Both the position numbers and the translations under genes were made by a program. A DNA stretch of 64,000 nucleotides from Pseudonocardia sp. CNS-139. Lineage in GTDB: Bacteria > Actinomycetota > Actinomycetes > Mycobacteriales > Pseudonocardiaceae. A model generated the notes under the pieces. It made no database searches. It was not told where the DNA came from and saw nothing but the letters and a program-made list of their open reading frames with translations. Of the stretch, positions 16,148 to 46,807 are shown in pieces (position 1 is the stretch's first letter; each line of letters begins with the position of its first letter). The DNA is taken from the NCBI GenBank assembly GCA_001942415.1, contig MKJX01000111.1, positions 1-64,000 of the forward strand, read 5' to 3'.

Positions 16148-16150
16148 CCG

Positions 16151-23483: not shown

Positions 23484-23558
23484 GGGCGATTAGCTCAGGG
23501 GGAGAGCGCTTCGTTCACACCGAAGAGGTCACTGGTTCGATCCCAGTATCGCCCACCA
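23484..23558 (+). tRNA. tRNA-Val(CAC), integration target of the downstream element
   Basis: Acceptor GGGCGAT/ATCGCCC, D-arm TAGCTCAGGGGGAGAGC, anticodon stem CTTCG/CGAAG with loop TTCACAC (anticodon CAC), T-loop GTTCGATCC and an encoded CCA. Bases 23528-23556, from the anticodon-stem side of the variable region through the T-arm and the acceptor 3' strand, are repeated exactly at 35298-35326, so this gene is the attB of the element. Confidence 0.97.
23528..23556. repeat. attL of the integrative element (29-bp direct repeat)
   Basis: Identical to 35298-35326. It covers the 3' end of tRNA-Val(CAC) up to the first two bases of CCA, as usual for tRNA-targeting tyrosine integrases that regenerate the tRNA on insertion. 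Confidence 0.93.
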
Positions 23559-24493: not shown

Positions 24494-24964
24494 ATGAGCG
24501 GCGGGAGGAACGTGGGCGGTCCGAGACCCGGCATGTTCGACGCATTGGCCCAACCGCTCCGTGCGCAGATTCGCACCGGTGAACTCGCCCCCGGTGCGCT
24601 CCTGCCGTCCGAGTCCGAGCTTGCCCGGGTTGCCGGTACGAAGCGGTACTCGATCCGCAAGGCGCTGTTCCTGCTCCGTGACGAAGGGTTGATCGAGCCG
24701 GTGCCGGGGCGAGGTTGGTCGGTGGTCGGCCACGGTGAGACCACACCGCGAGCGCTTCCGCGGTATCGCGAGATCGCGGCCGAGCTGCGCGCGGCGATCG
24801 CGGTCGGTCTGCTCGCACCGGGCTCGGCCCTCCCGAGTGAGGCCGAGCTGATGGCCCGGCACGCGGTGTCGCGGGCGACCGTCCGGCAGGCCCTCGCGCT
24901 CCTGGACGTTGAAGGATTGATCAACACTCATCCTGGCAAGGGCAGGTACGTCCGAGACGGATGA
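24494..24964 (+). CDS. GntR-type regulator made of two tandem winged helices
   Basis: A 156-residue protein with no effector domain, built from two GntR winged-helix units. Unit 1 has LRAQIRTGELAPGALLPSES and ELARVAGTKRYSIRKALFLL. Unit 2 has LRAAIAVGLLAPGSALPSEA and ELMARHAVSRATVRQALALL. Each ends with the wing (GRGWSVV and GKGRYVR). GntR proteins control transfer in pSAM2-type elements (KorSA), so this is a likely element repressor that could bridge two half-sites. It is complete; ATG 24494 is used, and a second ATG at residue 14 is also possible. Confidence 0.85.
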   Translation: MSGGRNVGGPRPGMFDALAQPLRAQIRTGELAPGALLPSESELARVAGTKRYSIRKALFLLRDEGLIEPVPGRGWSVVGHGETTPRALPRYREIAAELRAAIAVGLLAPGSALPSEAELMARHAVSRATVRQALALLDVEGLINTHPGKGRYVRDG

Positions 24965-25025: not shown

Positions 25026-25570
25026 GTGGGTCAGGTCGGAGATGCGCGTGGGCTCGCCGAGAGGTTCCTTGCCGAGCCGCTCCCGCGACGCTGGGCGCAC
25101 ACGCAGGGCGTGGCGGCGACGGCACGCCGGCTCGCCCCGGTCCTCGGTGACGACGCGGAACTCCTGGAAGCCGCCGCCTGGCTCCACGACATCGGGTACT
25201 CCCCGGACATCGCCGAGACGGGCTTCCACCCCCTCGACGGCGCCCGCCATCTCCGCGACGCCGCGCACGCGCCCCCGGCCCTGTGCAGCCTGGTCGCGCA
25301 TCACACCGGCGCGATCCACGAGGCCCGGGAGCGCGGCCTCGCGTCGGACCTGACCGGCGAGTTCGCGGCTCCACCGCAACCGCTGGCCGACGCGCTGACG
25401 TACTGCGACATCACGACCGGCCCGGACGGCGCCCCGATCGACGTCGAGCAGCGTTTGGCCGACATCCACAGCCGCTACGGCGACGATCACCCCGTCAGCG
25501 CGCCGTCCGTTGCGCGGGACCGTCCTACATCGCGAGTGTGCGAGCCATCGAGGCCCTGCTGAGGCCGTAG
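25026..25570 (+). CDS. HD-domain hydrolase, frameshifted near the end
   Basis: About 181 residues of the HD phosphohydrolase superfamily. Metal ligands are His in RRWAHTQGVAATA, His-Asp in AAWLHDIGYSPD, His-His in LVAHHTGAIHEA and Asp in ADALTYCDITTGPDG. Relatives hydrolyse nucleotides or signalling phosphates, but no substrate is indicated. Near 25500 one C is missing; restored, the C-terminus reads AVRCAGPSYIASVRAIEALL and stops at 25570. An operator box lies between the GntR gene and this gene, and HD genes are common in this part of AICEs. Confidence 0.82.
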
Positions 25571-26365: not shown

Positions 26366-26845
26366 TTATTCGAGATAGGGCGTTCCGTTGAACTCCAGGA
26401 AGCGGCGAATCCGTCGCTCCTGGGCGGGCGTCATCGGGAGATCGAGCACGTCCTCCCGGTCGTGCCAGGCGACCTCTCGTGACTCCGAGCTGTCCGCGAT
26501 CCATCCGCCGATTGCTCGACCCGCCAGCAGGATCGAGAACTCCTGGCGTATCTCGCCGTCGCTGGTGAACTCGACGACGTTCCGTGGGCTGCTGAAGATG
26601 CCGATGAGGCCGGTGATCTCGCACGTGATGCCGGTTTCCTCGTGTACCTCACGCCTGGCCGCTTCAAGCGGGGTCTCGCCCACCTCTTGCGCGCCACCGG
26701 GGATCGCGAACATGTCGTTGTCGGTGCGCTGGATCATCAGCAGTTGACCGGCGTCGTTCGTGACGGCGACGGCCACGCCGGGGACTATCCGTGTCGGCCG
26801 GGGCGCGTCGGGGTCGTCGAAGTAGTCGATCCGCCGTCCGCTCAT
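26366..26845 (-). CDS. Nudix hydrolase
   Basis: A 159-residue Nudix protein. The box is complete: GGAQEVGETPLEAARREVHE then ETG, following GxxxxxExxxxxxxREUxEExG. VAVTNDAGQLLMIQRTDNDM is the preceding strand. Nudix genes are regular members of pSAM2-like elements. The substrate is unknown. Its start lies 4 bases after the stop of XRE/DUF5919 copy 2, so both are probably on one transcript. Confidence 0.9.
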   Translation of the reverse strand: MSGRRIDYFDDPDAPRPTRIVPGVAVAVTNDAGQLLMIQRTDNDMFAIPGGAQEVGETPLEAARREVHEETGITCEITGLIGIFSSPRNVVEFTSDGEIRQEFSILLAGRAIGGWIADSSESREVAWHDREDVLDLPMTPAQERRIRRFLEFNGTPYLE

Positions 26846-26849: not shown

Positions 26850-27587
26850 CTACTCTAGCGGCTTGGCGGTGGCCCAGATCGTTTCGAAGCTCTCCCGGTA
26901 GAGGGTCACCATGTCCCCGCCCGGAACCTTCCGCAGGTGCAAGGCAGGGGCGTTCGATCCGGCGACGCCGTAGACGTGTGCATTCACGATCAGGTCGTCG
27001 TCGGACCGGAAAATCGACGTGTACAGGCACGCGTCGTGTAGCCGGAACTCGATGCCCTCGACGCCCACCAGCGGACGCAGGAGTGCGAGCACGTTCCGGA
27101 TTCGGAAAGCCACAACCCCCGGGCCGGTGTCCTCTTCCTTCTCGCGCAGCGCGACTGCCGGCGACTCCGGATCACTGATCAGCAGCCGGATCGGTACGCC
27201 CGATTCTGCCTTCTGCCGGAAGAGCTGCACCGTGCCGGAGTCCTCGGCGATGAACAGTCCCGCCATCGTAAGCATGTCGATCGCCTCGCGGGCATTCGCG
27301 AAGTGCTGGGCCCACACGTCCCGCGGAACCGCCCAACGGTGCGGATAGACGCTGATGATCTCGCTCTGCGAAGCAGCGGTGATCTGATCGCGGGGGAGTG
27401 CGTCCGGCCAGAGGTAGGACTCCTCGACGCCGAGCAACGTCGCGACGGTGAAACGGTGTTTCCGGTAGGGAACGCGCCCACCGATCCAGCGTTCGGTGGT
27501 CTTGAGGTCCACGGCGAGCTGTTCCGCGAGCTGCGCCGGAGTCATCCCTTTCCGGAGCAGAGCCGCCCGCAGACGCTCGTTCGACAA
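26850..27587 (-). CDS. XRE-type regulator with C-terminal DUF5919 domain, copy 2
   Basis: A 245-residue paralogue of the protein at 23623-24384. The helix-turn-helix is GMTPAQLAEQLAVDLKTTER followed by WIGGRVPYRKHRF. The DUF5919 part includes ISVYPHRWAVPRDVWAQHFA, SGVPIRLLISDPES, LYTSIFRSDDDLIVNAHVYG and ALHLRKVPGGDMVTLYRESF. It is intact. It is transcribed with the Nudix gene and is divergent from whiB, with an operator box between them. Confidence 0.85.
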   Translation of the reverse strand: MSNERLRAALLRKGMTPAQLAEQLAVDLKTTERWIGGRVPYRKHRFTVATLLGVEESYLWPDALPRDQITAASQSEIISVYPHRWAVPRDVWAQHFANAREAIDMLTMAGLFIAEDSGTVQLFRQKAESGVPIRLLISDPESPAVALREKEEDTGPGVVAFRIRNVLALLRPLVGVEGIEFRLHDACLYTSIFRSDDDLIVNAHVYGVAGSNAPALHLRKVPGGDMVTLYRESFETIWATAKPLE

Positions 27588-27600: not shown

Positions 27601-27650
27601 AGGACGTCCTGGGACGCCTGTGACCTTAAGGGGACGTCATCAACACGTCC
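27601..27650. promoter_or_regulatory. Element operator boxes 4 and 4b
   Basis: AGGACGTCCTGGGACGCCT (27601-27619) matches boxes 1 and 2. A second block, GGGGACGTCAT...ACACGTCC (27630-27650), lies 10 bases on. Both are between XRE/DUF5919 copy 2 and whiB. Confidence 0.5.
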
Positions 27651-27697
27651 AGTCAGGTGGTGATCATGTCACCGCCTCCGCGGCGAATCTCGGCGCC

Positions 27698-28057
27698 ATG
27701 AACAAGCGCAGCCACGAAGAGACCGCCGCTGAACTCGACGAACTGGCCGCCGTGCCGACCGACGTGCTCGCGGCGTGGGTGACCGACCGCGGCCGGTGCC
27801 TCTGGGAGACCACGTTCGGCGAGCCGCCTGCGTGGATGGGCGAGCACGAGCCGGACCGGGAGTTGGCCACGCAGATGTGCACGGGCTGTCCCGTCCGCTC
27901 CGAGTGCCTGGAGTTCGAACTCCGCGTCGCCGGTGCGGACACGCTCGGCGTGTGGGGTGCGCTCAACGAGAGCGACCGGCAGGCCCTGCACGCGGTGTGG
28001 TCGCAGCGACGCCGCAGTGACCTCGTGGCGATGCCGGAGGACGGTGGCCAGCGATGA
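27698..28057 (+). CDS. WhiB-family iron-sulfur regulator
   Basis: A 119-residue WhiB-like protein. The four cluster cysteines are Cys in DRGRCLWE, Cys-x2-Cys in QMCTGCPV and Cys in SECLEFE. The G-[VI]-W-G turn follows as TLGVWGALNESDR. ATG 27698 is preferred over upstream starts. WhiB proteins hold a [4Fe-4S] cluster and bind sigma factor. It begins the rightward transfer operon of the element. Confidence 0.9.
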   Translation: MNKRSHEETAAELDELAAVPTDVLAAWVTDRGRCLWETTFGEPPAWMGEHEPDRELATQMCTGCPVRSECLEFELRVAGADTLGVWGALNESDRQALHAVWSQRRRSDLVAMPEDGGQR

Positions 28058-28382: not shown

Positions 28383-30535
28383 CCGCCCACGACGGCGACG
28401 CCCGGACGGCTTGCCCGGGCCGGTCTACGAGGCAGAGATCGTCGACGCGTCGGCCGATGATCAGAGCGCAGCGCTCGTACGTCGGCCGACCGCGGACCTG
28501 GCGCGGCGCCGACACGAGCCGGCGCGGCGGGTTCTGTTCCGGACCGCGGTCGGCGTCTGGCGTACGGATCAGGTCGTCCGTACCCGGTCGGTGCTCGGCT
28601 ACCGAGCGCGGAAGCTGCCGCACGACCTCGCGCGGATGACCTGGTTCCTGATCCGCGGGCACGTCCGCTGGATCACAAAGGCGTGGGCCTTCTTCACCTA
28701 CGGCGACCTCCGCGCGGACGCACGGGCGGCGCGCGTCGCCGGAGACGTCGAAGCGCGGCGCGAGGCGCAAGAGCTGATCCGCGCGGACTCGCGTGCCGGT
28801 GGACCCGTCTCGCCATGGTGCTCGAAAGCGTCGGTAAGGGCGTAGCAACGCTCGGAGGGATTGGGCTGCTCTTATGGCTGCTCGACTCACTGATCCCGCG
28901 GGAGGAGATGTGGCCGTGGCTGGCGGGCCTGTACGAGCTGCTGACGGCGTCGGGGGCGGCGACAACGACGCTTGCCCCAGCTCTTGTCGTGCTCGTCCTG
29001 CTCGCCTGGCTCGTCGCGGCCGTGTACGAGGGGCGCGACATGGAGCCGGGCGCGAGCTTCCTGGTCCGCCCCGACCGGGACGACGCCGATTCGTGGTTCG
29101 CGAGCGGATGATCTCCCGGGCCCTCGCGCATCTGGGCATCGCGCCGCTGGACCGGTTCTTCAAGGATGGTGGCGAGCTGATCTACACCGTCCCGGCCCGC
29201 CTCGACGGCAACGGCACGTTTGCGCAGGTGCGGCTCCCGCTCGGCGTGACGGCCGACATGGTCGCGGACCGCCGGGACCGGCTCGCGGCGAACCTCGGCC
29301 GCGCGAAGCTGGAGACCTGGCCCACCGAGGGCACCGAAGCCGGCCTGCTGGACCTGTGGGTTGCCGACAAGGGCCGGCTCGGCAGCGGGGCCGGTCCGTG
29401 GCCGCTGCTCGTCGACGGTGAGGTGGACGTCTTCGACGGCGTGCCGTTCGGCCGGTCGCAGCGGGGCGAGGTGCTGAACGCGCCGATCATGGAGCGGAAC
29501 TATTTGATCGGCGGCCGTCCGGGGCAGGGGAAGTCCTCGGCCGGCCGCACCCTCTGCCTGGGCTGCATCCTTGATCCGACCGTGGAACTCCGCGTCCACG
29601 TGTTCGCCTCGAACCCCGACTTCGACCCGTTCAGGCCCCGCCTCTCGGCCTACGTCAAAGGTGACGATGACGAGGCGATCGCGGCCGGGCTTGCTGAACT
29701 GCGCTGGCTCCGCGACGAGGTGACGCGCCGTGGGCAGCTCCTTGAGCGCCACGGCGCCGCGAAGGTGACCCGCAAACTCGCGAGCACTGTCCGAGGACTG
29801 CATCCGGTCGTGGTGATCTTCGACGAGTGCCACGAGATGTTCGAGCATCCGCAGTTCGGCAGCGAAGCCGGATCGCTCGCGATCAAGGTAATCAAGAAGG
29901 CGCGGAAGTGCGGGATCACGCTCGTGTTCTTGACGCAGTCGCCCACAGCGACGTCGATCCCGAAGGACCTGACCCGCAACTGCTCGAACGGCGTCGCCTT
30001 CGCGGTCGCGGACCAGGTCGCCAACGACGGGCTACTCGGGTCGGGCACCTTCCGCCAGGGCATCCGCGCGACCGAGCTACGACCCGGCGAGGACCGGGGT
30101 ACAGCCGTCTGCGTCGGCCTCACGGCCAACCGCTTCGAGTTGGTCAACACGTTCTACGTCGCCTTCGACGAGGACCGCGACGAGGTCACGCCCGTCATCG
30201 TGCGCGCCATGGCGCTGCTCGACGAGCACGGCCGAAGCGTGCCCGTGCCACTGTCCGAGAACGACAAACCGGACGAACCGCGACCTGATCACCTCGCCGA
30301 CATACACAGCGTTCTATGCGGAGAGACGCGCGTCCGAACGCAGATCGTGCTGCGCCGGCTCGCCGACCTGAACCCCGCCGAGTACGGCGAGTGGTCTTTC
30401 CAAGACCTCGCTGCAGCGCTCGTTGCGGCGGGCCTCGCGGCTCGCAAGTCCGACGGCGTCATGGTCGTCCGCGCGGTCGACGTCGTCCGTGCGCTCGCCG
30501 AACGTGACGCGGACGGAGACGATGCGGATGAGTAG
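28369..30535 (+). CDS. TraB/FtsK-like conjugative DNA translocase, frameshifted
   Basis: About 720 residues, the single transfer protein of AICEs that pumps double-stranded DNA between mycelia. The N-terminal part has a basic stretch (RRRHEPARRVLFRTAVGVWR) and two membrane helices (VATLGGIGLLLWLLDSLIP; LVVLVLLAWLVAAVYEG). The motor domain has Walker A YLIGGRPGQGKSSAGR and Walker B VVVIFDECHEMFE, then LTQSPTATSIPKDLTRNCSN. A C-terminal winged-helix-like stretch is at EWSFQDLAAALVAAGLAARK. Single-base losses near 28795 and 29095 split the reading. The GTG at 28369 is in frame; ATG 28379 (ATGA overlap) would need another shift. The motor domain is intact from about 29100. Confidence 0.85.
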
Positions 30536-30779: not shown

Positions 30780-30950
30780 ATGAGCCTCTCTGCAGCGGCT
30801 GCCCACACGGACGTCTCCGTTCGGACGCTGCGTCGGTACATCGCGCAGGGGAGGCTGACCGGCTACCGCGTCGGTCCTCGCCTACTGAAGGTCGATCAAA
30901 GCGAGTTGGAGATGTTGGCCCGGCCTATACCAACGGCAGGGCCGAGCTAG
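30780..30950 (+). CDS. xis: Excisionase-type MerR-like helix-turn-helix protein
   Basis: A 56-residue protein: SLSAAAAHTDVSVRTLRRYI followed by AQGRLTGYRVGPRLLKVDQS, a winged helix of the HTH_17/excisionase type. The size and its position between the transfer gene and the integrase fit an Xis. The 244 bases upstream (30536-30779), where AICEs normally carry rep, hold no convincing gene. Confidence 0.72.
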   Translation: MSLSAAAAHTDVSVRTLRRYIAQGRLTGYRVGPRLLKVDQSELEMLARPIPTAGPS

Positions 30951-31175
30951 TAGTACTGCCTTCGGCTGCGTGATTCCTATCGGCCAGCCCATTTCTCTGC
31001 TGCTCGGCTCGGATGGCGATACCCAACGCCTGATAACCGCGACCGTACCGGTTGCACGCGTGTCTAGGTTTCCTGTCTGTTCAACGCGCTATTTCTGGTA
31101 GCGCCGCAACGCTCGCGGGTGAGGCGCACTCTGCTTGCCGGCCCCCGCTCACCGCATGGGCGCGGAGTGCTCCCG

Positions 31176-32108
31176 CTACGGCCGGACAGTGGACGATGCG
31201 TCGTCGAGCAGTTCGTTAATGAGAGACTCTTCTGACGGGACTCCTCCGCGCTCCAAGATGCTTCGAAAGCATGCCATTAGGAGTGACCAGGCGCGGTCCC
31301 ACTCATCCGTCCGAGGCAGTTTGTCGAACCGCCCGTGGGCAACCTTCGATCTGTCGCCATACGACCGACGTGCCTGATTGAACATATCTATTCGTGAAGA
31401 CTGTGATCCGGTCATCTGTGCGATATACATCGCCAGGCGGAAGCTGACCTCTGTCTGGACTCGAGGAAATATGGATTCAAGCCCGGTCCAGATGTGCAGC
31501 AAGGATTGGTCGATTGCGGGGAGCGTCGGCGCGGTCAGTGCAACTCGCTCGAGCATCACACATTCGGACACATTTCGTCGGATTTCAAGCCACCGCTCGG
31601 CATCTTCCACCGCTTGGCAAAATTTGGCCGCCGTCAATTCCAGTGTGAGTGCTTCACTTCTTACATATGAGCCTGACGGATAAGCTCCGCCAGACTTGGA
31701 TAGCGACCTCGCTGCTGACCACTCCTCGCCGACGCGCGGGAGGGAGTAACTCCACCGCCTGCGGAGTCTTACGAGCGCAGATGTCGGAGTAGTCGTTGAT
31801 CGAGTGGGTGGCAATCATCTGGGTCGAAAATGGGTGAACTTGGTTGACGTACAGCATTAAATGGAGCGCAGACAGGGACTCTGTCGCACTCTCAAAATTC
31901 TTACTATTGACAGTCAGCTCCAAGTTGCAGCTTTGGAGTAGGTTGTCGGCAACGCTGAACGGAATCTCTACGCTGTGTCGCGACCCGAGCTCGGCCCAAT
32001 CAAAGATGCTGACGCCCCATTTGCGCGTTACTGCACTGAATCGGCCTTGCTGAATATTGTCGTCTTCAGTCGGCAGGAGCAATGACACTGGAGCAAAGAA
32101 GTCTGGCA
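31176..32108 (-). CDS. HEPN (Apea-like) domain protein, frameshifted
   Basis: About 310 residues in AT-richer DNA. The C-terminal half is a HEPN domain: LLHIWTGLESIFPRVQTEVS, then MFNQARRSYGDRSKVAHG, where RSKVAH is the Rx4H catalytic motif of HEPN ribonucleases. It ends WSLLMACFRSILERGG. The N-terminal half (FFAPVSLLLPTEDD to LHLMLYVNQVHPF) is of unknown type, perhaps a sensor. One base is missing near 31768 (CICA/LVRL junction). The true start is uncertain: GTG 32108 is used, but the frame is open further upstream. It is divergent from a PIN-domain gene. Confidence 0.7.
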
Positions 32109-32612
32109 CTAGCCTGTTATACCAGTCTCGGTGGCGATTGAGTGCCCGGCGTCCTCGTCGGTCGGGCAGGCCTCTGGGATGGGTCGACCGCCCATCTCCT
32201 CGGTCTCCTGGCGATGTGCCACGCAGCCTCCGATGGGCGGGGCCTGGGCGACGTTGGGTCGGCGTTTTGCGTCGCGGCTGCCTGCAAGCGGCCGCGGGCC
32301 TGCCACTCGGGTCGACGGATGTGGCTATGGGTGAGTGGCTGATACGTTGACCAGGGCAGAATGCGTCATCGACCTCGGGTGGCACCGCCAACTAGACGGG
32401 TGCGACGAGGCGCGACGTAAGGCGCCCGAAGTCCTGGTGGGTCGGAATGAAGCGGTCCATCAGGTCTGTGAGAGTCTGTATCGACCGTTCGCTGCTATCC
32501 GGCATCGTTGCACGCACCGGTCGAGTAGGTTGGGTCGATAGGTCAGGCCACTGGGCCGTCTGCGGGAGGAGAACTCCATGCGGGTGCTCGATTCGCGGAG
32601 AGAGTTCATGTA
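32109..32612. other. Region between the HEPN and PIN genes
   Basis: About 500 bases, GC-rich on the left and mixed on the right. Small open frames exist on both strands, but none has recognisable composition or motifs. The left part might hold an N-terminal extension of the HEPN protein in another frame. The promoters of both cargo genes must lie here. Confidence 0.4.
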
Positions 32613-33796
32613 ATGGGCGTGACGCAAGTTGTGGTCGTCGTAGACACGACCACAATCTTTCCGGACGTTATGATGTCGCGTACGCGATGGATGCAATTAC
32701 TTTCGCTTTGCGCCAAGAGTGATATCCGGCTAGCGATCCCGGAAATCGTCCTTCGTGAGACCGCTCGACACTGGGAGGTGGAGGCCAAGAATGCGGTCGG
32801 CGCACTCGAGAGTCGAATTGATCGAATCGCAAGTTCTCGGGATCGGCTAAGCGCTCTAGGGCTCGACATTCCGATCCATGTTCCGCCTCCCGTCTCCGAT
32901 GTGGTGATCGACCGGCGACTTTTTCTCGCTAAGGCGACTGCCGCCTTCTAGCGTTAAGTGTTGAAGTGCTACCTCTGCCCGATGTGACAATTGGGCAGGT
33001 TCTAGAGCGTGATCTTGAGGGCCGCAGGCCCTTTGCGGCTAGCGGCAAAGGATTTCGGGACTCTCTTATTTGGGAGTCGGTGCGGCAGTTCGCGCACGGG
33101 CTCGATGCTTCTAGTGTCCTTTACTTCATTACCGATAACGCTGAAGACTACTGTCTTGGCGACGAGCTGCATCCGGACCTCGCGGCTGAGATTGAGGGTG
33201 CGCAATCTGAGGTTCGGCATGTGAAGAATCTTGAGGCTCTCTTCTCTGAAGCTGACCTCGGGGCCATGGTGGCAGGTTTGGTGGCAGACGACACTGAACT
33301 CTCTAGGTTCCTGGCACGAGCAATGGAGCCGCGCGAGCCTGACTATGAATTGCCTACGGTGGAAGAAATTGTGAGATTGGCCGTTATAGGCGCCGCCGAA
33401 GGCTTGGTTAACGAAGAAGTTAAGCGTGAGGGCTTCGCTAGTTCTGGGCTGGATTTCACTGCCATTGCGATCCCTTCGGAAATTCAGAGTCCAATGGTCT
33501 CGTATGTTGAGTGCGATGAGCAATCGGTGGACTGGGAATCTTTTGAAACGTACGACGACACGACCCTGCTGGTTAGGGCGACTGTCGACGCGAATGTTAG
33601 CCTCGAAGGCTTTGTCTATAAGAGCGACTACGTCGTAGTCGATCACGGTATCGTGCAACTTAGAATGTGGGATTGGAATGATCATATGGCTCATGTATCG
33701 ACGACCGTTCACGCACGCTTGGTGTTTCAGCTCCGGGTGGAGGTCGGCGTTGGCGTAGACGATGTCGAGTTTGAGAGCGCGGAGCCGTTAGCCTAA
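32613..33796 (+). CDS. PIN-domain (DUF4935-like) protein, frameshifted
   Basis: About 394 residues. The PIN nuclease fold is visible: VVVVDTTTIFPDV with the first catalytic Asp, RLAIPEIVLRETARHWEV with the conserved Glu, GFRDSLIWESVRQFA with the third acidic residue, and VLYFITDNAEDY with the last Asp. One base is missing near 32940-32948, between LAKATAA and LALSVEVLPLPDVT. The C-terminal 150 residues (IQSPMVSYVECDEQSVDWES onward) form a beta-rich domain of unknown type. It is AT-richer than its neighbours, so probably acquired. RNA cleavage is expected from the fold but not shown. Confidence 0.75.
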
Positions 33797-34013
33797 CGGG
33801 CGAGGCTGGGAAGGTTGGTTGAGTCCTGGGCGCTGGTCAGGCTGCTCCACGTCAACAGCAGCTCCGTCCCGAGCCAGTCAACGGATGCGTCCCGATGCGC
33901 CTCGAAGTGAGGGATAAGGCTGGAGTGGCGCGGGGCCTCTAGTTGGCTGCCTAAGAGTCAGTTGACCGGATATTGTCGCTCCTTCAGGAGCATGTGTTGC
34001 TGCCTCGATTGAA

Positions 34014-35146
34014 TTAATGTGCGCTCACTAACGCAGAGAGCGCCGCCGCGATCACCCGATCACGCTCCTCGGCTGCATGCTGATACCGCAATGCAGCCGC
34101 GGGCGTGAGTGGCCAAGCCTGGCCATCAACTCAGCCAGGGTCGCTCCGGTGGAAGCCGCAAGGACTGCGCCCGTGTGCCGCAGATCGTGGAACCGCAGGT
34201 CCGGCCGCTTTGCCTTCTCTCGCGCAGGGTAGTAGACCTTGTACAGCGTCGACGGCGCGAGCTGGGCACCGTGGCCAGCGGGGAAGAGTAGCCCGTTCCG
34301 CCCCGGAGCCGCGTGGTCGCGGAGGTGGTCACTCACCATCGGGACGAGGTGCGGCGGGATCGCCACTCGCCGCTTTCCGGCTTCGGACTTGGGGTCCTTC
34401 ACCTTGCGGCCGGTCTTCGTTCGCACCACGCCCCGCTGCACATGGACGACGGCGGTCGGCACGTCGACGTCGCTTCGGCGCAGCTCGGCCAGTTCCCCGA
34501 AGCGCAGCGCGAGCCAGGCGGCGAACAGCACCATGAGCTGGTACTTCTCTGGCATCGCCTTAGCGATCGTCTCCAACTCGGGGAGCGTCGCGGGCTTGAT
34601 CTTCTTCGCGCGTTTGGTCTGGCCGGCGCGCGTATGCGGCAGGGGTTCGCGGCGAGCAGGTCGTCGTCGATCGCGGTCTTGAGGATGCTGCGCAGGAGGT
34701 CGGTAGGCGTGCGCGCGGGCGGGTCGGGCCGGGTGCCGGGAGCTGAGCGCGGCGTACCAGGTGCGGACCTTGACGGGGTTGATGTCAGGTACCAGGAGAT
34801 CGCCGAGGGTCGGGTTGACGTGGTCGCGGAGCAGTTGTTCGTAGTGCTCGCGCGTGCGGTCTTCGAGGTCACGTTGCTTCACCCACGCGTCGGCGTACTC
34901 GCGCAGCGACGGGGGAGGGGCCTGGGGCTCGGCCGGCGGCAACCACTCCTGACGCAGGATCTCGGAGTGGCGCATGGCGAGCCACGCTTCCGCGTCGCCC
35001 TTGGTGTCGAAGGTCAGCCCGCGTCCGTCGGCCCGTTGGGCGGCGCGGCGCTGGCCGTCCGGGCCGATGTAGCGGGCCTGGTACCGGCCGGAGGGCAGCT
35101 TCCGGACGCTTCCGAAGTGCCGAGCTGCGGGCTTCCGCGTGGGCAT
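34014..35146 (-). CDS. int: Tyrosine recombinase/integrase, several frameshifts
   Basis: About 378 residues. The N-terminal AP2-like DNA-binding part is RYQARYIGPDGQRRA, and the SAM-like core-binding domain is LREYADAWVKQRDLEDRTRE. Catalytic residues are Arg in WLALRFGELAEL, His-x2-Arg in RFHDLRHTGAVLA, His in ARLGHS and Tyr in ALRYQHAAEERD. The tyrosine lies in a different frame from the rest. One-base losses near 34120, near 34640 and near 34735 break the gene. With them repaired the stop is at 34014-34016. It lies 150 bases from attR, the normal place for the enzyme that inserts the element at tRNA-Val. Confidence 0.85.
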
Positions 35147-35297
35147 GCCCTCAATGGTAGCGGTGTGCCCTCAACGTGCCCAGAGATGAGGGAATCTGTG
35201 TCCACGAATGTCCACCTCTGACCGGCGATACTGGGTGCTGAACCAGCAGCTCAGAGCCTATATCGCGACGGAAGGTGTGACGGCCGGATGAGGCCGT

Positions 35298-35326
35298 GTC
35301 ACTGGTTCGATCCCAGTATCGCCCAC
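35298..35326. repeat. attR of the integrative element
   Basis: 29 bases identical to attL (23528-23556). After it, a further stretch of about 48 bases is similar but not identical to the sequence after the tRNA, including a copy of its terminator. Confidence 0.93.
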
Positions 35327-35335
35327 GTTGCTGAC

Positions 35336-35366
35336 AGGCCCCTGACCTGCAAGGTCGGGGGCCTTC
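35336..35366 (+). terminator. Second copy of the tRNA-Val terminator hairpin, beyond attR
   Basis: AGGCCCC with GGGGCCT and an inner ACCT/AGGT stem, differing from 23566-23596 at a few bases. No tRNA body precedes it here, so it probably marks the original downstream flank of attB. Confidence 0.6.
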
Positions 35367-35430
35367 GGCATTTCCGGAAGCTGCCGCGCCTCCCGCCCCA
35401 GCCAGGATGTCCTGGCAGATGTCCTGAGCG

Positions 35431-37108
35431 TCACGGGATGACGCAGACCTGGAGCCGAACCCCCAGTCGTTGGAAAAGGACTGCGGCTGAGGCGAGTTCG
35501 GACCGGGCGAACGTGAAGAGGCGATCCGGGGTGAGCAGGCCGTTGCTGCGGTGGATGGCGAACACAAGCGTGTGGGGACGGTCGCCGAGTCCGTCCGCCC
35601 GGGCCGGGTGCTGCTCCCGGACGAGATCGACGAACTGGTGCCAGGTCTCGCGGTCGGTGAGGCTGTCGACCGCGACGATGCCCTGGGCGAAGAGGTGGCT
35701 GAGCGGTCCCGACCCGGTCCGCCGGCTGATCTTCTTGACGTGCACCAGCTCGCCGTCGGGTCCGAGGAGGTCGCATGCCTCGAACCCGCGGCGGTGCGCC
35801 GGCGTGCGGACGAGCTTGCGGTCGAGGCAGACGAACCCCTCGACGCGGTCGGCGACGTAGCGGTTGTAGTCCTGCTCCTCCCACCGTTCGCCCGGACGGT
35901 GGCCTTCGGCCCAGGCGGGCAGGTCCCATTCCGGTCGGTCCGCGAACGCGGCGTCGACCACGCGCGCGACGTGCTGGCGGTAGCGTCGGAGGTGTCGTAC
36001 CACTCGCCGTCGAGCAGGACGAGTCGCTGGTCACGGTCGATGTCAACCTGCGCGGTGAGCCACTCGGCGGCAGGTGCGTCCGTCGCCAGCGGCTCACCCG
36101 ATGAGTCCAGGCCGCCGATGCGTGAGGTCTGCAGCACCCGCAGTCGCCGCGAGCGGTCGACAGTGGCCAGGCCGTCGCGGAGGTCGACGAGGGCGAGCTG
36201 CGGGTCGTCGATCCGGTGGCGACCGATCTGCCCGACGTACCGGCGCACGTCCGGCCCACCGTGAAACCTGCCCGGGTAGGCGAGGCTGACTGCGTCGTCC
36301 AGCAACGCGAGCTTGTCCAGTGCGATCTCCCAGGCACGGTCGGTGATGTCGGTGCGGTCCGGCGGGACGCGGCGGACCCAGCGCAGCGGGGCCAGGCTGG
36401 GATCGATCTCGTGCTCGTGCAGGACCCGCGCGATCTCCCGCAGGTCCGCCACGAGGAGCTGTGGTGACTCGGGAAGGGGGAGTCGCATGCGATCGGTGCA
36501 GTCGATCGGGACGGTGTCGGTCCGTCGCCGAGAACGACGGGAGTGGGACAGGTCCATCCGGGCTTTCGAGCTGATGGTGCCGGCAAGCTGCCGGACGAGC
36601 TCAGCGTGCTCGCGGATGCCGAACGACCACAGCTCTTGACCCGAGGGAACGAGATTGGTGTCCACACGGGCCTTGGCGCTGAGGTACTGGCGTCGGACCT
36701 GGCGCACGGCGTCGGCGCGAGGACCCGGAGGGCGAGGTCGAGGCCGAACTCTCGGTCGACAAGATGGGTGCGCAGCAGCCGGCGACCGCTGAATGCCGAA
36801 CGTCAGCGCGAATGTCTCGCCGTCGATGCGCACGATCAGGAGCGCTGCTGCGTCCGAGGACAGGTATCCGAGATCGAGTCCGGTGAGTGAGCGAACGTGC
36901 TCCACCCAGGCACGTGGCTTCGGAGGCCGCTCTCCGAACACAAGCAGAGCCTGGTCTCCGAGGTCGCCCACGGGGTCCGACGCGTAGTCGTCCGCAGCCG
37001 CCTCGTCGTGTACGTCCCAGTACGAGTCCAGGTCATGCCCTGGTTCGAGTCGGTAGATCGACACGTCGTGGGTGCGGTCGGCGGGTTCTCCGTCTGTGAC
37101 GTGGGCAT
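35431..37108 (-). CDS. TIGR04141/DUF6119 sporadically distributed protein, frameshifted
   Basis: About 560 residues. VSIYRLEPGHDLDSYWDVHD is the opening, LDLGYLSSDAAALLIVRIDG and NLVPSGQELWSFGIREHAEL are in the first half, and GFEACDLLGPDGELVHVKKI lies in the C-terminal part. The pattern matches the TIGR04141/DUF6119 family, which is patchily spread and often lies beside restriction and other defence genes; its activity is unknown. One-base losses occur near 36800, near 36700 and near 36000. The C-terminal 190 residues are intact. The start is uncertain: ATG 37108 would require one more shift, and the core frame is open to 37130. It stands between attR and the R-M cluster and is divergent from an XRE regulator. 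Confidence 0.7.
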
Positions 37109-37164
37109 CGGGCGTCTGACGATGCAGCAACTGCCGTCACCTTTCACCAATGGGCGGCCAGCGT

Positions 37165-38825: not shown

Positions 38826-40474
38826 GTGGACATCGAGGAGCGTGAGCACGTCACCGCGGCGTGGATCGCGCGTCAGGCCGGCGTGGGCCGGGCCGCGGTC
38901 GCAACTGGCGTAAACGGCATGCCGACTTCCCGGAGCCGGTGGCCGGCGGGCCGACCACCCCGCTGTTCTCCTGGCCGGCCGTGCGGCAGTGGCTGCTCGA
39001 CACGGGGAAGAGCGAGCAGCTCGCTGTGGCCGGCCGCACCGACACCGGTACGCAGCAGATCGGCGACGCGAGCCTCGATCGCTCGCTCACCGGCCTGAGC
39101 CCCCGCGAGCTGCTGGCCCGCGTCCTGGTGGCGCTGCTGCCGGGGCTCGGAGAGGGTCGACGCCCGGCGACGACGTTCGAGGCCCCGTTCGTCCTCGATC
39201 CGGCCTGCCGCGATCCGGCGGTGCTGACCGCCCTCGCCGAGCGGTTCGCCGACCACGTCCGGCTCGCGGGCCAGGGCGACAGCGTTCCCGTGCCGGAGGG
39301 CACCGACCTGCGCCGCGGTGATGCGCTGCGGCACGACCGGTTCGCCGAGGTGCGTGGCACCGCGCGGGCCGTGGTGTGCGTGCCGCCGTCGACGCGGACG
39401 TGGCCGGCCGCCGACCTCGCCGCCGATCCGCGGTGGCGGTTCGGGCTGCCCGATCCGGCGGACCCGGACCTGGCGTGGGTGCAGCACTGCCTTGCGCACC
39501 TGCGGCCTCGGGGGACCGCGGTCGTGGTGGTGTCGCCGGTCGCCGCGGTTCGCCCGTCCGGGCGGGCGGTGCGCGCAGCACTCGTCCGCGCCGGGGTGCT
39601 CAGCGATGTGATCGCGCTGCCCACCTCGCTCGACGGCGTCGGGCAGGTGTGGGTCCTGCAGCGCGACCTCGACGCGCGCGCGGTGCGCATGATCGATCTC
39701 TCGACGCTCGCCGACCCGGCCGACGTCCCGCAGAACTGTGGCGAGTGGGACGAGCTGCGCGCCACCGAGGATCGAGCGGTCGTCCGGGCGGTGCCGCAGG
39801 TGGAGCTACTTGACGAGGAAACGGCGCTGACGCCGGCCCGCTACCTCGAGGTCCGCGACGCGACCACGCCCACTGAGCTCGGCCGCATTACCGACCGACT
39901 GCGCCGCCTCTACGCCGATCTCGGCCGCGCGTTCCCCGAGCCGGTCGCCCCGCCGGCAGCGGCACGGCACTCGCCCGTGACGCTGGCTGAGCTGGAGCGG
40001 ACGCGGGCGATATCGATTCTGCCTCGCGACGCCACCCCTCGCGCCGGCGACCTGCTCTTCCGGGTACTGGGGCAGGACCCGGTGGTGGCCACCGGATCGC
40101 CCGACGATGAACGCGGCGTCGCCCAGGTGGTGGGGATCGACACCGACCGCCTCGATCCGCACTTCGTGGCCGCCTTCGTCCGTGCGGACGCCCGGGCGGC
40201 CCCCGTCGCCAACACCCACGGTGCGTTGACCCGTGACGACGTGCGCCGTTGCCGCGTCCCGCGGCTCCCGATCGCCGAGCAGCGCCGCTACGGCGATGCC
40301 CTCCGGTACCTGCTGGACCTGCGGAAAGTAGCGGCTGGGCTGGCCGCGGCGACCGATGCGGTGATCACTCAAACCGTTCACGGGCTCACCGTGGGTGCCC
40401 TCAGCCCGTACCCCGCGCCTCACCGCGAGACCATCACCCCCGAGACCCAGCCGAACGGAAAGACGACACCGTGA
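38826..40474 (+). CDS. HTH plus degenerate N6-adenine methyltransferase-like protein with TRD-like tail
   Basis: About 548 residues, first gene of the R-M operon. The N-terminus is a DNA-binding helix-turn-helix (HVTAAWIARQAGVGRAAVA) followed by NWRKRHADFPEP. One base is lost near 38905. The core aligns with HsdM-type methyltransferases, but SAM motif I reads VLDPACRDPAVL instead of DPACGxG, and the catalytic NPPF/Y reads VVCVPPSTR, so methyl transfer is unlikely. The C-terminal third looks like a specificity subunit half: RAGDLLFRVLGQDPVVATG, DPHFVAAFVRADAR and a coiled-coil-like end (AEQRRYGDALRYLLDLRKVA). It may be a regulator or accessory specificity factor. The stop overlaps the hsdM start. 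Confidence 0.72.
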
Positions 40475-42449
40475 CCACCAGTACCGGACCCACGCACCAG
40501 CGGATGGCGAACGACATCTGGTCGGTCGCGACCTTCTGCGCGGCGACTACAAACGCCACGACTACGGGAAGGTGATCCTCCCGTTCACGCTGCTGCGCCG
40601 GCTCGACGCCGTGATGGCCCCGACCCGCGAAGCCGTCCGCGAGCGGGATGTCGCGCTGCCCGACATGCAGAACAAGCAGCTCCTCCTGGAGCGCGCGGCC
40701 AAGTTGCCGTACTACAACACGTCTCTGCAGGACTTCGCCTCCGTTGCCGCCGACTCCGGCAACGTGGCGAAGAACCTGCGCGACTACGTCAACGGCTTCT
40801 CGCCGAACGTGCGGGAGATCCTCGCCGAGTTCAACCTCGACGAGCAGATCATCCGGCTCAACAGCGCGAAGCTGCTGTACCTCGTGGTCGGGCGGTTCGC
40901 GGCCATGAAGGACCTCGACAAGCTCTCGAACGAGCAGATGGGATACGTGTTCGAACACCTCATCCGTAGGTTCGCAGAGGACTCGAATGAGACCGCCGGT
41001 GAGCACTTCACCCCGCGCGAGGTCATCAAGCTGATGGTGAACCTGCTGATCGCGCCGGACGCCGACGCGGTCGCGGGTGAAGGTCAGGTCATCAACATCC
41101 TCGACCCCGCGTGCGGGACGGGCGGCATGCTCGTCGCCGCTGAGGACCACATCAAGGCGATGAATCCGAACGCGCAGGTCTACCTCTTCGGGCAGGAGGT
41201 GAACGGCGAGTCGTGGGCCATGTGCCAGTCGGACATGCTGATGAGCAACCACCGCGGCGCGATTGCCCGCGCCAACACGTTCAGCGATCCGAAGCACCAG
41301 GACAAGAAGTTCGACTACATGCTTGCCAACCCGCCGTTCGGCGTGGAGTGGAAGAAGGTCAAGGACGACATCGAGCGCGAGGCCGAGATCGGCCACGCCG
41401 GCCGCTTCGGCGCCGGGTTGCCGCGCATCAACGACGGCTCGTTCCTCTTCCTTCAGCACATGATCCACAACATGGAGCCGCGGGAAGGCAAGGGCTCGCG
41501 CATCGCGATCGTCTTCAACGGCTCACCGCTCTTCACCGGCGCCGCCGGCTCGGGCGAGTCGCGCATCCGGCAGTGGATCCTGGAGAACGACCTCCTCGAA
41601 GGTATCGTCGCCCTGCCCGACCAGCTCTTCTACAACACCGGCATCTCCACGTACTTCTGGATCCTCTCCAACCGCAAGGACCGTGCTCTTCGGGACAAGG
41701 TGATCCTGCTCGACGCCCGCGACCAGTGGGTGAAGATGCGCAAGTCGCTGGGGGACAAGCGCAAGGAGATCAGCGACGAGCAGATCGACCACATCACGTC
41801 GGTGTATGCGAAGGCTGTGGAGATCGCCGCAGATGAGTCGCACCCCGACCACACGAAGGTGAAGGTCTTCCGCACCCGCGAGTTCGGCTACCACCGCATC
41901 ACGGTCGAACGCCCGCTCAAGCAGCGGTTCGAGATCAGCGACGACATCCTCGCCGCGCTGGAGCACGCCAAGCCCCTCGCCCGCTGGGACGCCCGCGACG
42001 CCTTCATCGAGGCGGTCCGGCCGCTGCTCGGCGTGGTGTGGTGGACGAAGGCCGAGGCCGCCGACGCGCTCCGGTTGGCGCTCGTCGGTGCCGGTGAGCT
42101 CTGGCCGAGCTCCGCGCCGATCCAGAAGGGCATCTGGGGTGCGGTCGCCGTCGCTGATCCCAAGGGGGAGGTGCAGAAGGCAAAGGGCGAAGTGCTCCCC
42201 GATCCTGACCTGCGCGACTACGAGAACGTGCCGCTCGACGAGGACATCGAGGAGTACTTCCGGCGCGAGGTCATCCCGCACGTGCCCGACGCGTGGATCG
42301 ACCACGACAAGACCAAGGTCGGCTACGAGATCCCCTTCACCCGGCACTTCTACGTGTACACGCCGCCTCGGCCGCTAGCGGAGATTGATGCCGATCTCCA
42401 CGACCTTGAGCTGCAAATCCAAGCTCTAATTCGAGGTGCTGCACGGTGA
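40471..42449 (+). CDS. hsdM: Type I restriction-modification methyltransferase subunit, frameshifted at start
   Basis: About 660 residues. N-terminal HsdM_N: HQRMANDIWSVA, then after a missing G near 40530, LLRGDYKRHDYGKVILPF. SAM motif I is ILDPACGTGGMLVAAEDH and the catalytic motif IV is MLANPPFGVEWKK, both intact, so m6A methylation of DNA is expected. The C-terminal extension (LARWDARDAFIEAVRPLLGV) is longer than in classic EcoKI HsdM. GTG 40471 overlaps the upstream TGA and its own stop overlaps hsdS. Confidence 0.93.
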
Positions 42450-43701
42450 GATCAATGTGGCCAGAGGTTCCTCTGTATTCGATTGCAGACGAGGTTCGGG
42501 TTGCGATAGATCCTGCAGTCTACGATGGCGAGGTTTTTCATTATAGCATTCCGGTAGTAGAAGAATTCGGTACCGGAAGGGTTGAGTTGGCTGCAGGGAT
42601 TGCGTCCAGCAAGCTCCTCCTGCGAGGGGGCGAAGTTCTGGTCAGCAAGCTCAACCCCCGCAAGGTCGAGTACTCATCGCCGAGAATTCGATACTGCCGA
42701 TCCTGGCCTCGCCCGAGTTCGTCGCCTTCAATCCAGGCCCGCTTGTGTCTGGCAGGTTTCTAGCCTACTTGCTGGAAAGCTCGGCAACGCGATCCGTTCT
42801 CGAAGCAGGAGTTCAGTCGGTCACTAAGAGTCATCAGAGAGTCTCGCCGGAGATGATCAGGCATCTACATTTTGCGCTCCCCTCGACGGTTGAGCAGGAA
42901 GCGGTGACGCACTTCCTTGATGTGGAGCTGAAGCGGATAAGCGATCTGATGGACATCTCGCTGGAGCAGCAACGTGCCACTAGAGAGCGCTTCGCGGAGT
43001 GTATTCGGCTGAGTACAACGGGTAGTGGCGATGAGTGTGTGATGCCCACGGGAATCGATTGGATGCCGACAATCGGCGCTTCCTGGAAGTTGTTCAAGGT
43101 TGGACGTGAGTTTCTCACTTCGAGTGGCACAACTCCTGATGCTCAAGACGAGAGATTCTATGATGGTCCGTATCCCTGGGTGGTTAGTTCGGAACTAATC
43201 GACGATGACATCTTCTCGGTCTCTCATTCTGTTAGTCGTGCCGCGTTGGTGTCGTACGCTGCACTTCGCGTCCAGCCGGTGGGTGCACTCCTGGTGGCGA
43301 TGTATGGGCAAGGCCAGACGAAAGGGCGCACCGGTCTCTTAAGGGTGGCGGCGTGCCTGAATCAGGCTTGCTGCGCACTTATTGAACGCGGGCAAGTGTC
43401 GGCCGAGTTTGCGCAATACTGGTTTAAGGCCCACCGTGACGGCGTTGTGGCCCTTGCTTATGGAGCTGGTCAGCCGAATCTGAGTCAGGAGCTCCTTCGT
43501 AGCCTTCGTATACCTGCGCCGGAGCGAGTCCAGCAGGATTGCATCGTTCGCAGATTGCGGGAGCAAGAACAGGACTACCGTCAGCAACTTCGTCTGCTGG
43601 AACTCAGGCAGAAACTCTTGCTCGAGCGCCGCCAGGCGTTGATCACCGCGGCGGTTGCCGGTCAGATCGACATGAGCACCGCGAGGGGAGTCGAAATATG
43701 A
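42446..43701 (+). CDS. hsdS: Type I restriction-modification specificity subunit, frameshifted
   Basis: About 418 residues. The first target-recognition domain starts WPEVPLYSIADEVRVAI. After a one-base loss near 42660 it continues GRVLIAENSILPILASPEFV and ends LPSTVEQEAVTHFLDVELKR, the conserved spacer helix. The second TRD starts PTIGASWKLFKVGREFLTSS and ends RVQQDCIVRRLREQEQDYRQ with a second coiled coil. It sets the DNA sequence recognised by HsdM and HsdR. It is markedly AT-richer than hsdM and hsdR, as usual for swapped TRDs. Confidence 0.9.
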
Positions 43702-46700
43702 GCCCCGGCATCCACACTGAGAAGGCGTTTGAAGCCCGCGTCGAGCACGAGCTGCTCGAGCAGGGATGGGAGCGGGCGGAGGGCTTCTACCGGGCCGACC
43801 TCGCGATCGACACCGGCGCACTGTTCACCTTCATCGGCCGCACTCAGCAGAAGATCTGGGACAAGCTGATTGACCTGTACGGCGGTGACCTGCCGACCGC
43901 GCAGAAGCAGTTCGCGCAGCGCCTCGCCGCCGAGATCGACGCGCGTGGGGTCCTCGATGTCCTGCGCCGAGGAGTGAAGGACCGGGGTGTCCTCATAGAC
44001 CTGGCTTACTTCCGCCCCGGCCACACCCTCGCCGCCGACGCACTACGCGAGTACCACGGGAACGTGTTCACGGTCGCGCGGCAGGTGCACCTCAGCCGCG
44101 ACCACGCAAAGAAGTCCGTCGACATGGTGCTGTTCGTGAACGGCCTCCCCACAGCGACGGTGGAACTCAAGAACCCGAACACTGACCAGAACGTCGAGGA
44201 CGCGATCGCGCAGTATCGCGACCGCGATGTCCACGAGCCGCTGTTCGCGAAACGGGCGGTTGTGCACTTCGCAGTGGACCCCGATCGTGCGTACGTGGCG
44301 ACGCGGCTCCAGGGGCGCGACACGCGCTTCCTGCCGTTCAACATCGGCACGAACGGTCCGGGAGTCAGCGGTGGGGCCGGGAACCCGACCCCGGAGGCGG
44401 GTAGCTATGCGGTGGCTTACCTGTGGGAGCAGATCTGGCAGCGGGACAACTGGCTGGAGATCCTGCAGCGGTTCGTGCACGTCGAGTCCTCGACGAAGAA
44501 GGGCGTGAAGAACGACCCGCACACGGCGCCGCGGATCTTCCCGCGCTACCACCAGTGGCACGCCGTTCAGCAGATGGTCGGGCACGCCCGCGTACACGGC
44601 GCTGGGCAGAACTACCTGATCCAGCACTCCGCGGGCTCGGGTAAGTCGAACACCATCGCGTGGCTCGCACACCGCCTCTCCACGCTGTTCGACGATCAGA
44701 ACCAGCCGGTGTTCCACAAGATCGTGGTGATCACCGACCGCACCGCGCTGGACCAGCAGCTACAGGGCACGATCTTCCAGTTCGACCACGAGCCCGGCGT
44801 CGTCAAGAAGATCGACGAGGACTCGTCGCAGCTGGCCGCCGCACTCGACGACGCCACGTCGAAGGTCGTGATCAGCACGATGCAGAAGTACCCCTACATC
44901 CTGAGCAAGATCGCGGGGATGGATCTGGCGGGCCGCCGCTACGCCGTGATCATCGACGAGGCGCACACCTCCCAGGGCGGCGACGCGGCGCTGCGGCTCA
45001 AAGAGGCGTTGGGCGTCAACGCGGTCCGGGAGGACGACGAGGACGAGGCCACCTACTACACGCGAGTGCGCGGCAAGCAGCCGAACCTGTCGTACTTCGC
45101 GTTCACGGCCACCCCGAAGTCGCCGACGCTGAAGCTGTTCGGCACCTGGGACCCGCTGCGGGTCAACCCGCACACCGGCGAGCAGGGCATGCATGTGCCC
45201 TTCCACGTCTACTCGATGCGCCAGGCCATCGAGGAGGAGTACATCCTCGACGTGCTGTCCAACTACCTGACCTACGAGACGAAGTGGCGGCTGCGCAACA
45301 CCGCCCGCGACGCCGCGATCGCCAACCCGGAAGTCGACGAGGCGAAGGCGAAGGCGAAGCTCGTCCAGATGGCGCTGCGGCACCCGACGTCGGTGGCGCA
45401 GAAGGCGAAGCTGATCGTCGAGGACTTCCAGGAGGAGCTCGCCGGCAAGCTGGGCGGTCGTGCGAAGGCGATGGTCGTCACCGGCGGCCGCCAGGATGCG
45501 CTCACGCTCTACCAGGCGATCCGTCGCCGCATCACTGATACCGGCGCCGGCATCGGGGTGCTCGTCGCGTTCTCCGGGAAGCTGGAGGACGACGCCGGGT
45601 CGGACGCACGGAGGCCCAGCTCAACGGGTTCAGCGAGAAGCAGTTGCCCGATCGGTTCGGCTACACCAAGGCCGACGACCCGCAGGCGGTCGCGCGCGAT
45701 CAGGATGAGTACCGGCTGCTCGTGGTGGCGGAGAAGTATCAGACGGGCTTCGATCAGCCGTTGCTGTGCGGGATGTACGTCGATAAGACGCTGGGTGGTT
45801 TCGATGCGGTGCAGACGCTCTCACGGCTGAACCGCATCCACCCGCTCAAGAGCCAGGACGACGTGCGGATCCTGGACTTCGTCAACGACGCCGAGGCGAT
45901 CAAGAAGTCGTTCGAGCCGTGGTTCGAGACGACCATCACCGATGCGGCCGACGCCAACATCCTCTACGACAAGCAGCGGCTGGTGATGGAGTACCAGGTG
46001 CTCGTGGCCTCGGAGATGGACGCGTTCCTGCGGGTGCTGCAGGAGGCCGGGTCGGCGACACTGAAAGGCGCGGCCGAGAAGCAGTATCACGCGAAGCTGA
46101 CCAACTCACTGAAACCGGCCCAGGATCGGTTCGCCGAGCTCGACGTCGATGAGCAGAGCGGTTTCCGCGGCGAGCTGCAGGTCTACGTCCGCGCCTACGG
46201 CCTGCTCGCCCAGATCATCGACTGGGGCGATCCCGACCTCGAGCGGCTCTACCAGTTCGGCTCCGTACTGCTGAAGCGGATCGGCGGGCCGGCCGCGGCG
46301 GCCGTCGACATCGGCGACGCCGACCTCAGCCACTTCCGGTTGCAGTTCACCGGCCGCCACAACGTGTCACTGACCGAGGTCGGGGACCGCGACGTGCGCG
46401 GGCACGCCGCGGACGGCGGCGGCCGCCGCGAGCCCGAGATGGCGCCACTGGCCGAGGTGATCGCCGAGCTGAACGACCGGTTCGGGCTCGACCTCGGCAC
46501 GTCGGACGAGGTCCTCATCCTCCAGCAGGTCGCCGGCCTGGTCAGCGACACCGCGGTGGCGCAGGTCGGGCTGATGAACGACGAGGCCCGGTTCGCCCAG
46601 GTCGCCGACGACCGGCTCGACGACATCGTCGCCGACAACGCCGAGCGGAACACCGACTTCGTCAAGCACTACTTCGACAACGACGAGTTCCGAACCCTGG

Positions 46701-46807
46701 TCAAGGAGGCCGCCCGCAAGCGCGCCTACCAGATCATCAACGCTCCGGTCCGCGACGAGGCGCTGGCGAAGCTGCGCGCGGAGATGGAGCGGGAGACCGG
46801 CCTGTGA
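43698..46807 (+). CDS. hsdR: Type I restriction endonuclease subunit, one frameshift
   Basis: About 1037 residues. The N-terminal nuclease has the PD-(D/E)xK element VDMVLFVNGLPTATVELKNP. The helicase has Walker A IQHSAGSGKSNTIAWL, DEAH box VIIDEAHTSQGGDAA and motif III YFAFTATPKSPTLKLFG. One base is lost near 45605, between DDAG and TEAQLNGFSEKQLPDRFGYT. Motif VI is QTLSRLNRIHPLKSQDDVRI. The enzyme translocates DNA and cuts unmodified sites. ATG 43698 overlaps the hsdS stop and its stop overlaps rhuM. Confidence 0.93.

Follow-up and report, generated by a model that had tools for sequence, protein, structure and literature searches.

Two genes for proteins that look like RNases, an HEPN gene and a PIN gene, stand back to back beside the integrase of a mobile element. 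The question raised by this locus is whether the two genes form one system or were carried separately, and what function they serve. The window, which is the whole stretch of 64,000 nucleotides that was analysed, is located on contig C111 of the Pseudonocardia sp. CNS-139 genome (7.1 Mb, 250 contigs, 78.5% completeness). An earlier note, made from the sequence alone, had described the genes as RNase cargo beside the integrase. The RNase-like folds, the foreign-looking composition and the tRNA-integrated element were upheld by the analysis, while the HEPN–PIN unit was not.

The tRNA-Val element and its cargo genes

The ends of the element were set by a 29-bp repeat of the tRNA-Val(CAC) 3′ end, which occurs twice, 11.8 kb apart. 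A second repeat of 20 bp was found 38 bases past each att start, at 23566 and 35336. The following features were identified, apart from the HEPN and PIN genes:

23484..23558, plus strand: tRNA-Val (anticodon CAC), the integration site (ARAGORN; Rfam RF00005)
23528..23556: attL, 29 bp of the tRNA-Val 3′ end (exact direct repeat)
24494..24964, plus strand: GntR regulator of the element (PF00392)
25026..25562, plus strand: HD hydrolase of the element (PF01966)
26366..26845, minus strand: NUDIX hydrolase of the element (PF00293)
26850..27587, minus strand: DUF5919 protein (PF19319 over the cut-off) with a weak HTH match (PF13693 under the cut-off)
27620..28057, plus strand: WhiB-like regulator (PF02467)
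28874..30535, plus strand: FtsK/SpoIIIE-like translocase (PF01580, E 1.4e-4, 21.8 bits, below the cut-off of 24)
30780..30950, plus strand: excisionase-like HTH_17 gene (PF12728, E 2e-5, 25.2 bits, below the cut-off of 27)
34052..35146, minus strand: tyrosine integrase, apparently frame-disturbed too (PF00589 and PF14659; breaks judged by eye)
35298..35326: attR, copy of the 29-bp tRNA-Val 3′ end (exact direct repeat)

The HEPN and PIN genes are placed between the excisionase-like HTH_17 gene and the tyrosine integrase. RepSA (PF20199) was not found in the element; the single RepSA match of the genome was on contig C233. The FtsK-like protein also matched PADLOC mad8 (E 4.7e-9), probably via the common ATPase domain.

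The insertion site was compared in ten same-genus loci, fetched as matching the tRNA region. All ten had the tRNA followed by other DNA, and the element matched only short stretches of them, of 143 bp (L072) and 94 bp (L066). In L067, the 29-bp repeat recurred about 11.2 kb on, with integrase, Rep-like and FtsK-like ORFs between the copies (by eye), so tRNA-Val(CAC) is a used insertion site. This stretch (L067:1600-12960) appears to be a different element of about 11.2 kb in the same tRNA-Val(CAC) of a relative. In another genus of the family (L009:9113-18228), a PIN relative is likewise close to this tRNA cluster, and an integrase adjoins tRNA-Val(CAC) there. On the other side of the element, a DUF6119/TIGR04141 gene in two frames (35151-37130) lies mostly just beyond attR. 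Next, at 38861-47820, come genes for type I restriction-modification (two PADLOC MTase_I matches, at 38861 and 40395), together with specificity, restriction and RhuM-like ORFs (by eye). The DNA to the right of the element thus resembles a defence island.

The two cargo genes consisted of the following parts:

31176..31691, minus strand: C-terminal part of the HEPN gene, which includes the HEPN domain, in the other frame (profile 143-306, E 1.4e-74)
31332..31352, minus strand: RSKVAHG, the Rx4H active-site motif
31640..31692, minus strand: zone with the HEPN frame change (alignment and profile)
31684..32109, minus strand: N-terminal part of the HEPN gene, with GTG at 32109 as its probable start (profile 2-144)
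32613..32951, plus strand: PIN N-terminal part with VDTT and PEIVLRE (PIN_12 profile 1-71, 24.2 bits)
32860..32951, plus strand: zone with the PIN frame change (ORF/profile comparison)
32933..33796, plus strand: PIN C-terminal part with GFRDSLIW, FITDN and a tail with DWNDH (PIN_12 profile 114-172, 37.5 bits)

The HEPN-type gene with an Rx4H motif that had been claimed was confirmed: RSKVAHG was present, and its R and H were the same in all six aligned members. The N-terminal part aligned from residue 1 of a Novosphingobium homologue, and its frame is open to a stop near 31657; the C-terminal ORF ends at 31176, with an aligned piece of 31691-31200. The Novosphingobium homologue is one continuous protein, whereas the window gene needs two frames (32109-31684 and 31691-31200). 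The protein of about 310 aa is predicted to consist of an alpha/beta N-terminal domain followed by an HEPN-type RNase domain.

The divergent PIN nuclease was likewise found, as a PIN_12 (PF16289) gene on the plus strand. One ORF ends at 32951 and another frame is open from 32933; only the second half exceeded the PIN_12 cut-off of 32 bits. The protein has about 395 aa, and about 210 residues after the PIN_12 match lie beyond the Pfam model. The closest relative, L088, had 38% identity over 71 aa in the N-terminal part and 37% over 285 aa in the C-terminal part. As assembled, neither HEPN nor PIN is the plain gene that had been assumed: each is split by a frame change rather than being one open frame.

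The GC content was 54.5 and 56.1% for the HEPN pieces and 56.2 and 54.3% for the PIN pieces, compared with 65.4–74.0% for eight other element genes. The earlier note had stated that the base composition differed from that of all neighbours. This held against the eight element genes but not more widely, since 42251-43250, outside the element, was equally low (55.8%); the composition of HEPN and PIN is therefore unusual in the window, not unique. The distinct codon use that had also been proposed agreed with GC3, the one measure by which it was judged (57–66% in the HEPN and PIN pieces vs. 74–87% in the eight other genes).

The cause of the two splits was investigated by aligning proteins of same-genus relatives to the window. 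Five of nine conserved chromosomal genes switched frame, with six switches in total (8845-9662, 9680-10215, 10331-11971, 12946-14138, and 16628-17978), and four were intact (12028-12804, 59678-60832, 60798-62072, and 62688-63881). The split calls at 9680-10215 and 16628-17978 came from one relative each (L045 and L048, respectively). Rows with less than 55% identity or fewer than 40 residues and ORFs failing the codon-bias filter were dropped, as were, by eye, one antisense row on the plus strand (w11478-12825) and, near 12003-12605, shadow segments. Because chromosomal genes at 8845-17978 switch frame too, the assembly seems rich in indels.

The HEPN and PIN genes could also be real pseudogenes, the decaying cargo of a defective element. 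One frame change per gene, the disturbed look of the integrase and an element without RepSA would fit such decay. The similar switching of the conserved chromosomal genes makes this unlikely, as do the HEPN and PIN frames, which are otherwise open and keep their active-site motifs. From these alignments, assembly indel errors are the likelier and simpler cause of both splits, and HEPN and PIN may be active at present. Frame-broken genes in this assembly are not to be read as decayed.

Families and predicted folds of HEPN and PIN

HEPN relatives were found at five loci among 56 pattern-matched stretches of species genomes: two in Streptomyces and the others in Roseibium, Mesorhizobium and Sphingomonas. 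Relatives were also present in three plasmid records, among them one truncated gene and one sister paralogue. No HEPN relative was found among 23 matched stretches of viral contigs, and phage records gave no match for HEPN or PIN. The GC content of HEPN was under that of its locus in five cases (L058, L059, L060, L061, and L013) and over it in L062. The C-terminal HEPN region matched a single PHROG, 28161, with E 9.1e-7 for the window HEPN part and E 2.4e-17 for the Streptomyces relative L058. No HEPN model of Pfam (e.g., Apea-like) was matched at E ≤ 10 by the two window pieces or the L013, L014 and L015 proteins, and the family gave nothing beyond chance in NCBIfam or PADLOC. In Sphingomonas zeae (L062:5334-7171), two HEPN paralogues were found in tandem with an overlap of up to 4 bases, possibly a two-HEPN operon. 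An HEPN match in genome G132 (L003, E 4.7e-5) was rejected as false; it lies inside a longer ORF resembling a PucR-type regulator (by eye).

The fold was studied with an AF2 model (mean pLDDT 76) of L058, which is 49% identical to the window in the HEPN part. The best row of VIA-align was 2hsb (HEPN), with Z 7.2, rmsd 4.2 and 113 aligned residues; this value is under the helical-bundle bar of the tool, at a level that VIA-align calls common for helical bundles. Csm6 had Z 6.2, and HEPN proteins made up four of the best five rows. Foldseek against the PDB gave nothing significant (best E 2.7), and the best match of the model to viral structures had E 0.32. The N-terminal domain of the L058 model had weak matches to unrelated alpha/beta folds (best Z 4.0). 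The motif and the moderate structure matches suggested that the family likely has an HEPN fold.

Eleven PIN relatives of 351–433 residues were compared. All contained the first D, the E and the (R/A)D motif (loose patterns), and six contained a DxDWNDH-like motif. By BLASTP, the C-terminal piece of the window PIN reached the tail of nine of the eleven relatives; L064 and L091 aligned in the PIN domain only. Three intact relatives matched PIN_12 over its whole length. Relatives were also found in 14 plasmid records and two viral contigs. The GC content of L088 was not low: at 70.0%, it exceeded that of its locus (66.9%). A PIN fold was supported by the model of the relative L063, which matched PIN proteins with a best Z of 9.6 (VapC, Z 9.1). 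A viral structure search with the PIN model found one strong match, A0A8S5M7Q9, 'PIN like domain' (E 1.1e-10, TM 0.45, rmsd 14.9). The PIN profile against PDB sequences gave unrelated matches only (E 0.35–0.47), and single-protein rescans with L063 and L064 returned only themselves. The tail had been described as beta-rich. Its presence is common to relatives, but its beta-rich character is not proven, because the predicted strands had pLDDT mostly below 50 in the L063 model.

Two further arrangements were observed. L092 matched only the tail part of the PIN family profile; at L092:7740-8351, the tail domain stands alone without a PIN domain, and an adjoining protein has a sub-threshold Mrr_cat match. 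In two genomes, at L012 and L093, a ParA-like ATPase gene (by eye) immediately precedes a more distantly related PIN gene; the arrangement resembles a conserved two-gene unit.

Independent occurrence and probable function

The recurrence of the HEPN–PIN pair was investigated in the loci of the relatives. Within the flanks, PIN was absent from all nine HEPN-relative loci (L013–L015, L058–L062, and L094, a weak match in G323 kept solely for this count), and HEPN was absent from all 14 PIN loci (L009–L012, L016, L017, L063, L064, and L088–L093). The flanks were mostly 6–10 kb, some being ended by the contig, and L063 and L064 stop about 300 bases past PIN. In the family sample of 297 genomes, PIN was found in five (own genome included) and HEPN in two, namely the own genome and one judged false. 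In the class sample of 394 genomes, PIN was found in nine (own included) and HEPN in two, and only the own genome was common to both. The earlier note had named a lack of co-occurrence elsewhere as the first half of its own refutation of a pair, and no co-occurrence was found. The pair hypothesis was rejected on this ground.

A single two-gene system, for example a toxin and a regulator with a common divergent promoter, would account for the divergent arrangement of the genes, with about 500 bp between them, and for the unusual composition that they have in common. It is highly improbable given that no relative's locus holds both genes and that the genome samples overlap in the own genome only. 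The promoter and terminator scan (sigma-70-type promoters, 30900-34200) also gave nothing over chance, with one site found and 1.0 expected. The adjacency of HEPN and PIN appears to reflect the cargo slot rather than a common function. Neighbouring RNase genes in one cargo slot need not form a system.

The neighbourhoods of the relatives were then considered. A CBASS cyclase (E 1e-88), accompanied by annotated ThiF and patatin genes, is located 3.3 kb from the truncated Sinorhizobium HEPN relative; no PADLOC model matched the patatin beside the cyclase. In Agrobacterium, GajA and GajB (Gabija) are found 1.5 kb from the sister HEPN paralogue. The PIN relative L064 is preceded by a P2-like gpA (PF05840) and by a KAP NTPase that matched PDC-S49 (E 1.7e-119). 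In the available part of PMC9122126, the interval from gpA to gpQ is described as a hotspot of defence genes; the L064 contig ends before any gpQ. Other PIN relatives follow an integrase (L063) or adjoin a divergent Mrr-TIR (L088), Vsr (L091) or a resolvase (L089).

Tool-annotated mobile or nuclease/defence genes, picked by eye and without a random-locus baseline, occurred in nine of the 14 PIN loci (L009, L016, L017, L063, L064, L088, L089, L091, and L092, the last with the sub-threshold Mrr match). By the same picking, again without a baseline, they occurred in five of the nine HEPN loci (L013, L014, L015, L059, and L062). The integrase profile had no match in any of these nine loci. Plasmid PIN neighbourhoods came from two of the 14 records, and L085 and L086 (class-sample PIN), with short flanks only, lie outside these counts. 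As the neighbours were chosen by eye without a random control, the context is suggestive only, and the neighbours of some relatives may point to conflict genes.

The best explanation is that HEPN and PIN are two independent single-gene RNase effectors carried as element cargo, probably in anti-phage or inter-element conflict; its chances are about evenly balanced. Under this explanation, an 11.8-kb integrase-bearing element in tRNA-Val(CAC) would carry two unrelated RNase genes back to back. In HEPN, the RNase domain would be preceded by an alpha/beta N-terminal domain, and PIN would be a PIN_12 nuclease extended by a C-terminal tail. Each protein would probably remain inactive until infection or a competing element is sensed by its extra domain, and the activated HEPN or PIN would then cut RNA, stopping replication. 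Counted against this explanation were the splitting of both genes, the lack of PADLOC or NCBIfam matches, and the KAP (L064) and Vsr (L091) relatives without tail alignment. The GC content of L088, which is not low, the integrase profile found in none of nine HEPN loci, and the tail pLDDT below 50 were counted against it as well.

A further reading goes beyond this, with two uncatalogued one-protein RNase immune systems in one element, whose extra domains would be new infection sensors. HEPN would then be thinly spread from Streptomyces to alphaproteobacteria, and PIN_12 with the tail would occur on actinobacterial chromosomes, plasmids and an integrase-bearing viral contig. It is held only tentatively, as possible but short of probable.

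HEPN and PIN might be addiction toxins that stabilise the element, with antitoxins unrecognised or acting in cis, as RNase folds are used by toxins and both families ride mobile DNA or plasmids. With their large extra domains, HEPN and PIN are unlike small toxin–antitoxin toxins, and no small upstream partner was seen by eye in three PIN relatives (L063 with the integrase, L091 with Vsr, and L088 with Mrr-TIR), so this reading is improbable. A position flanked by the excisionase-like gene and the integrase would also suit a service to the element itself, namely RNA-level control of transfer, excision or copy number instead of defence. The relatives are found in contexts unrelated to each other (chromosomal loci, plasmids, and a viral contig with an integrase), and no accompanying element gene was seen with them by the integrase profile and by eye, which leaves such a service quite unlikely. 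If the preferred reading of two independent effectors is true, two compact single-gene RNase families join the defence or conflict genes of small actinobacterial integrative elements. Intact relatives of HEPN and PIN exist for direct testing.

Comparison with known systems

The element resembles the AICEs, for which the available part of PMC3218068 describes a tRNA-directed integrase and an HD-NUDIX-XRE cluster. It likewise has a tyrosine integrase in a tRNA 3′ end with direct repeats, an FtsK-like gene (PF01580 below the cut-off), and HD and NUDIX genes with a regulator. Of the replication initiators that characterise AICEs (RepSA, RepAM or Prim-Pol), RepSA was the one looked for, and it was not found in the element.

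Several known toxin and effector systems were compared with the cargo genes. For HEPN-MNT toxin–antitoxin, no MNT nucleotidyltransferase was found among the element proteins scanned, and the neighbours of HEPN are PIN and HTH_17. For the CARF-HEPN proteins Csm6 and Csx1, the N-terminal domain of the window family gave unrelated alpha/beta matches, with a best Z of 4.0. With respect to VapBC, the window PIN of about 395 aa has a tail and a divergent HEPN neighbour, and is not a small toxin with VapB. PADLOC gave chance matches only for the HEPN and PIN proteins scanned (TGT, E 0.059; Cmr5, E 0.035). PHROG 28161 matched the window HEPN at its C-terminal part only and has no assigned function.

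For PIN_12 (PF16289), both window PIN halves matched the profile, although the window gene is split and its tail is beyond the Pfam model. PIN_12 is also called DUF4935, its older name. DUF4935 is named in PMC6722718. HEPN suicide RNases are discussed in PMC3710099, as far as its available text extends. Titles and the starts of abstracts in the literature contained none on this HEPN family or on PIN_12-plus-tail proteins as defence genes.

Two further parallels are by description, not by sequence. According to the available portion of PMC13092281, DefensePredictor DS-3 (PIN) and DS-11 (CBS-HEPN) are one-protein systems whose catalytic residues are needed for phage defence. As described there, DS-3 is a one-protein PIN without a cognate antitoxin, as the window PIN is read here, and its PIN is split between the N and C terminus. 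DS-11, in the same portion, is a one-protein HEPN with an extra CBS domain, to which the window HEPN is likened. The HEPN and PIN genes would thus be further members of known RNase effector types.
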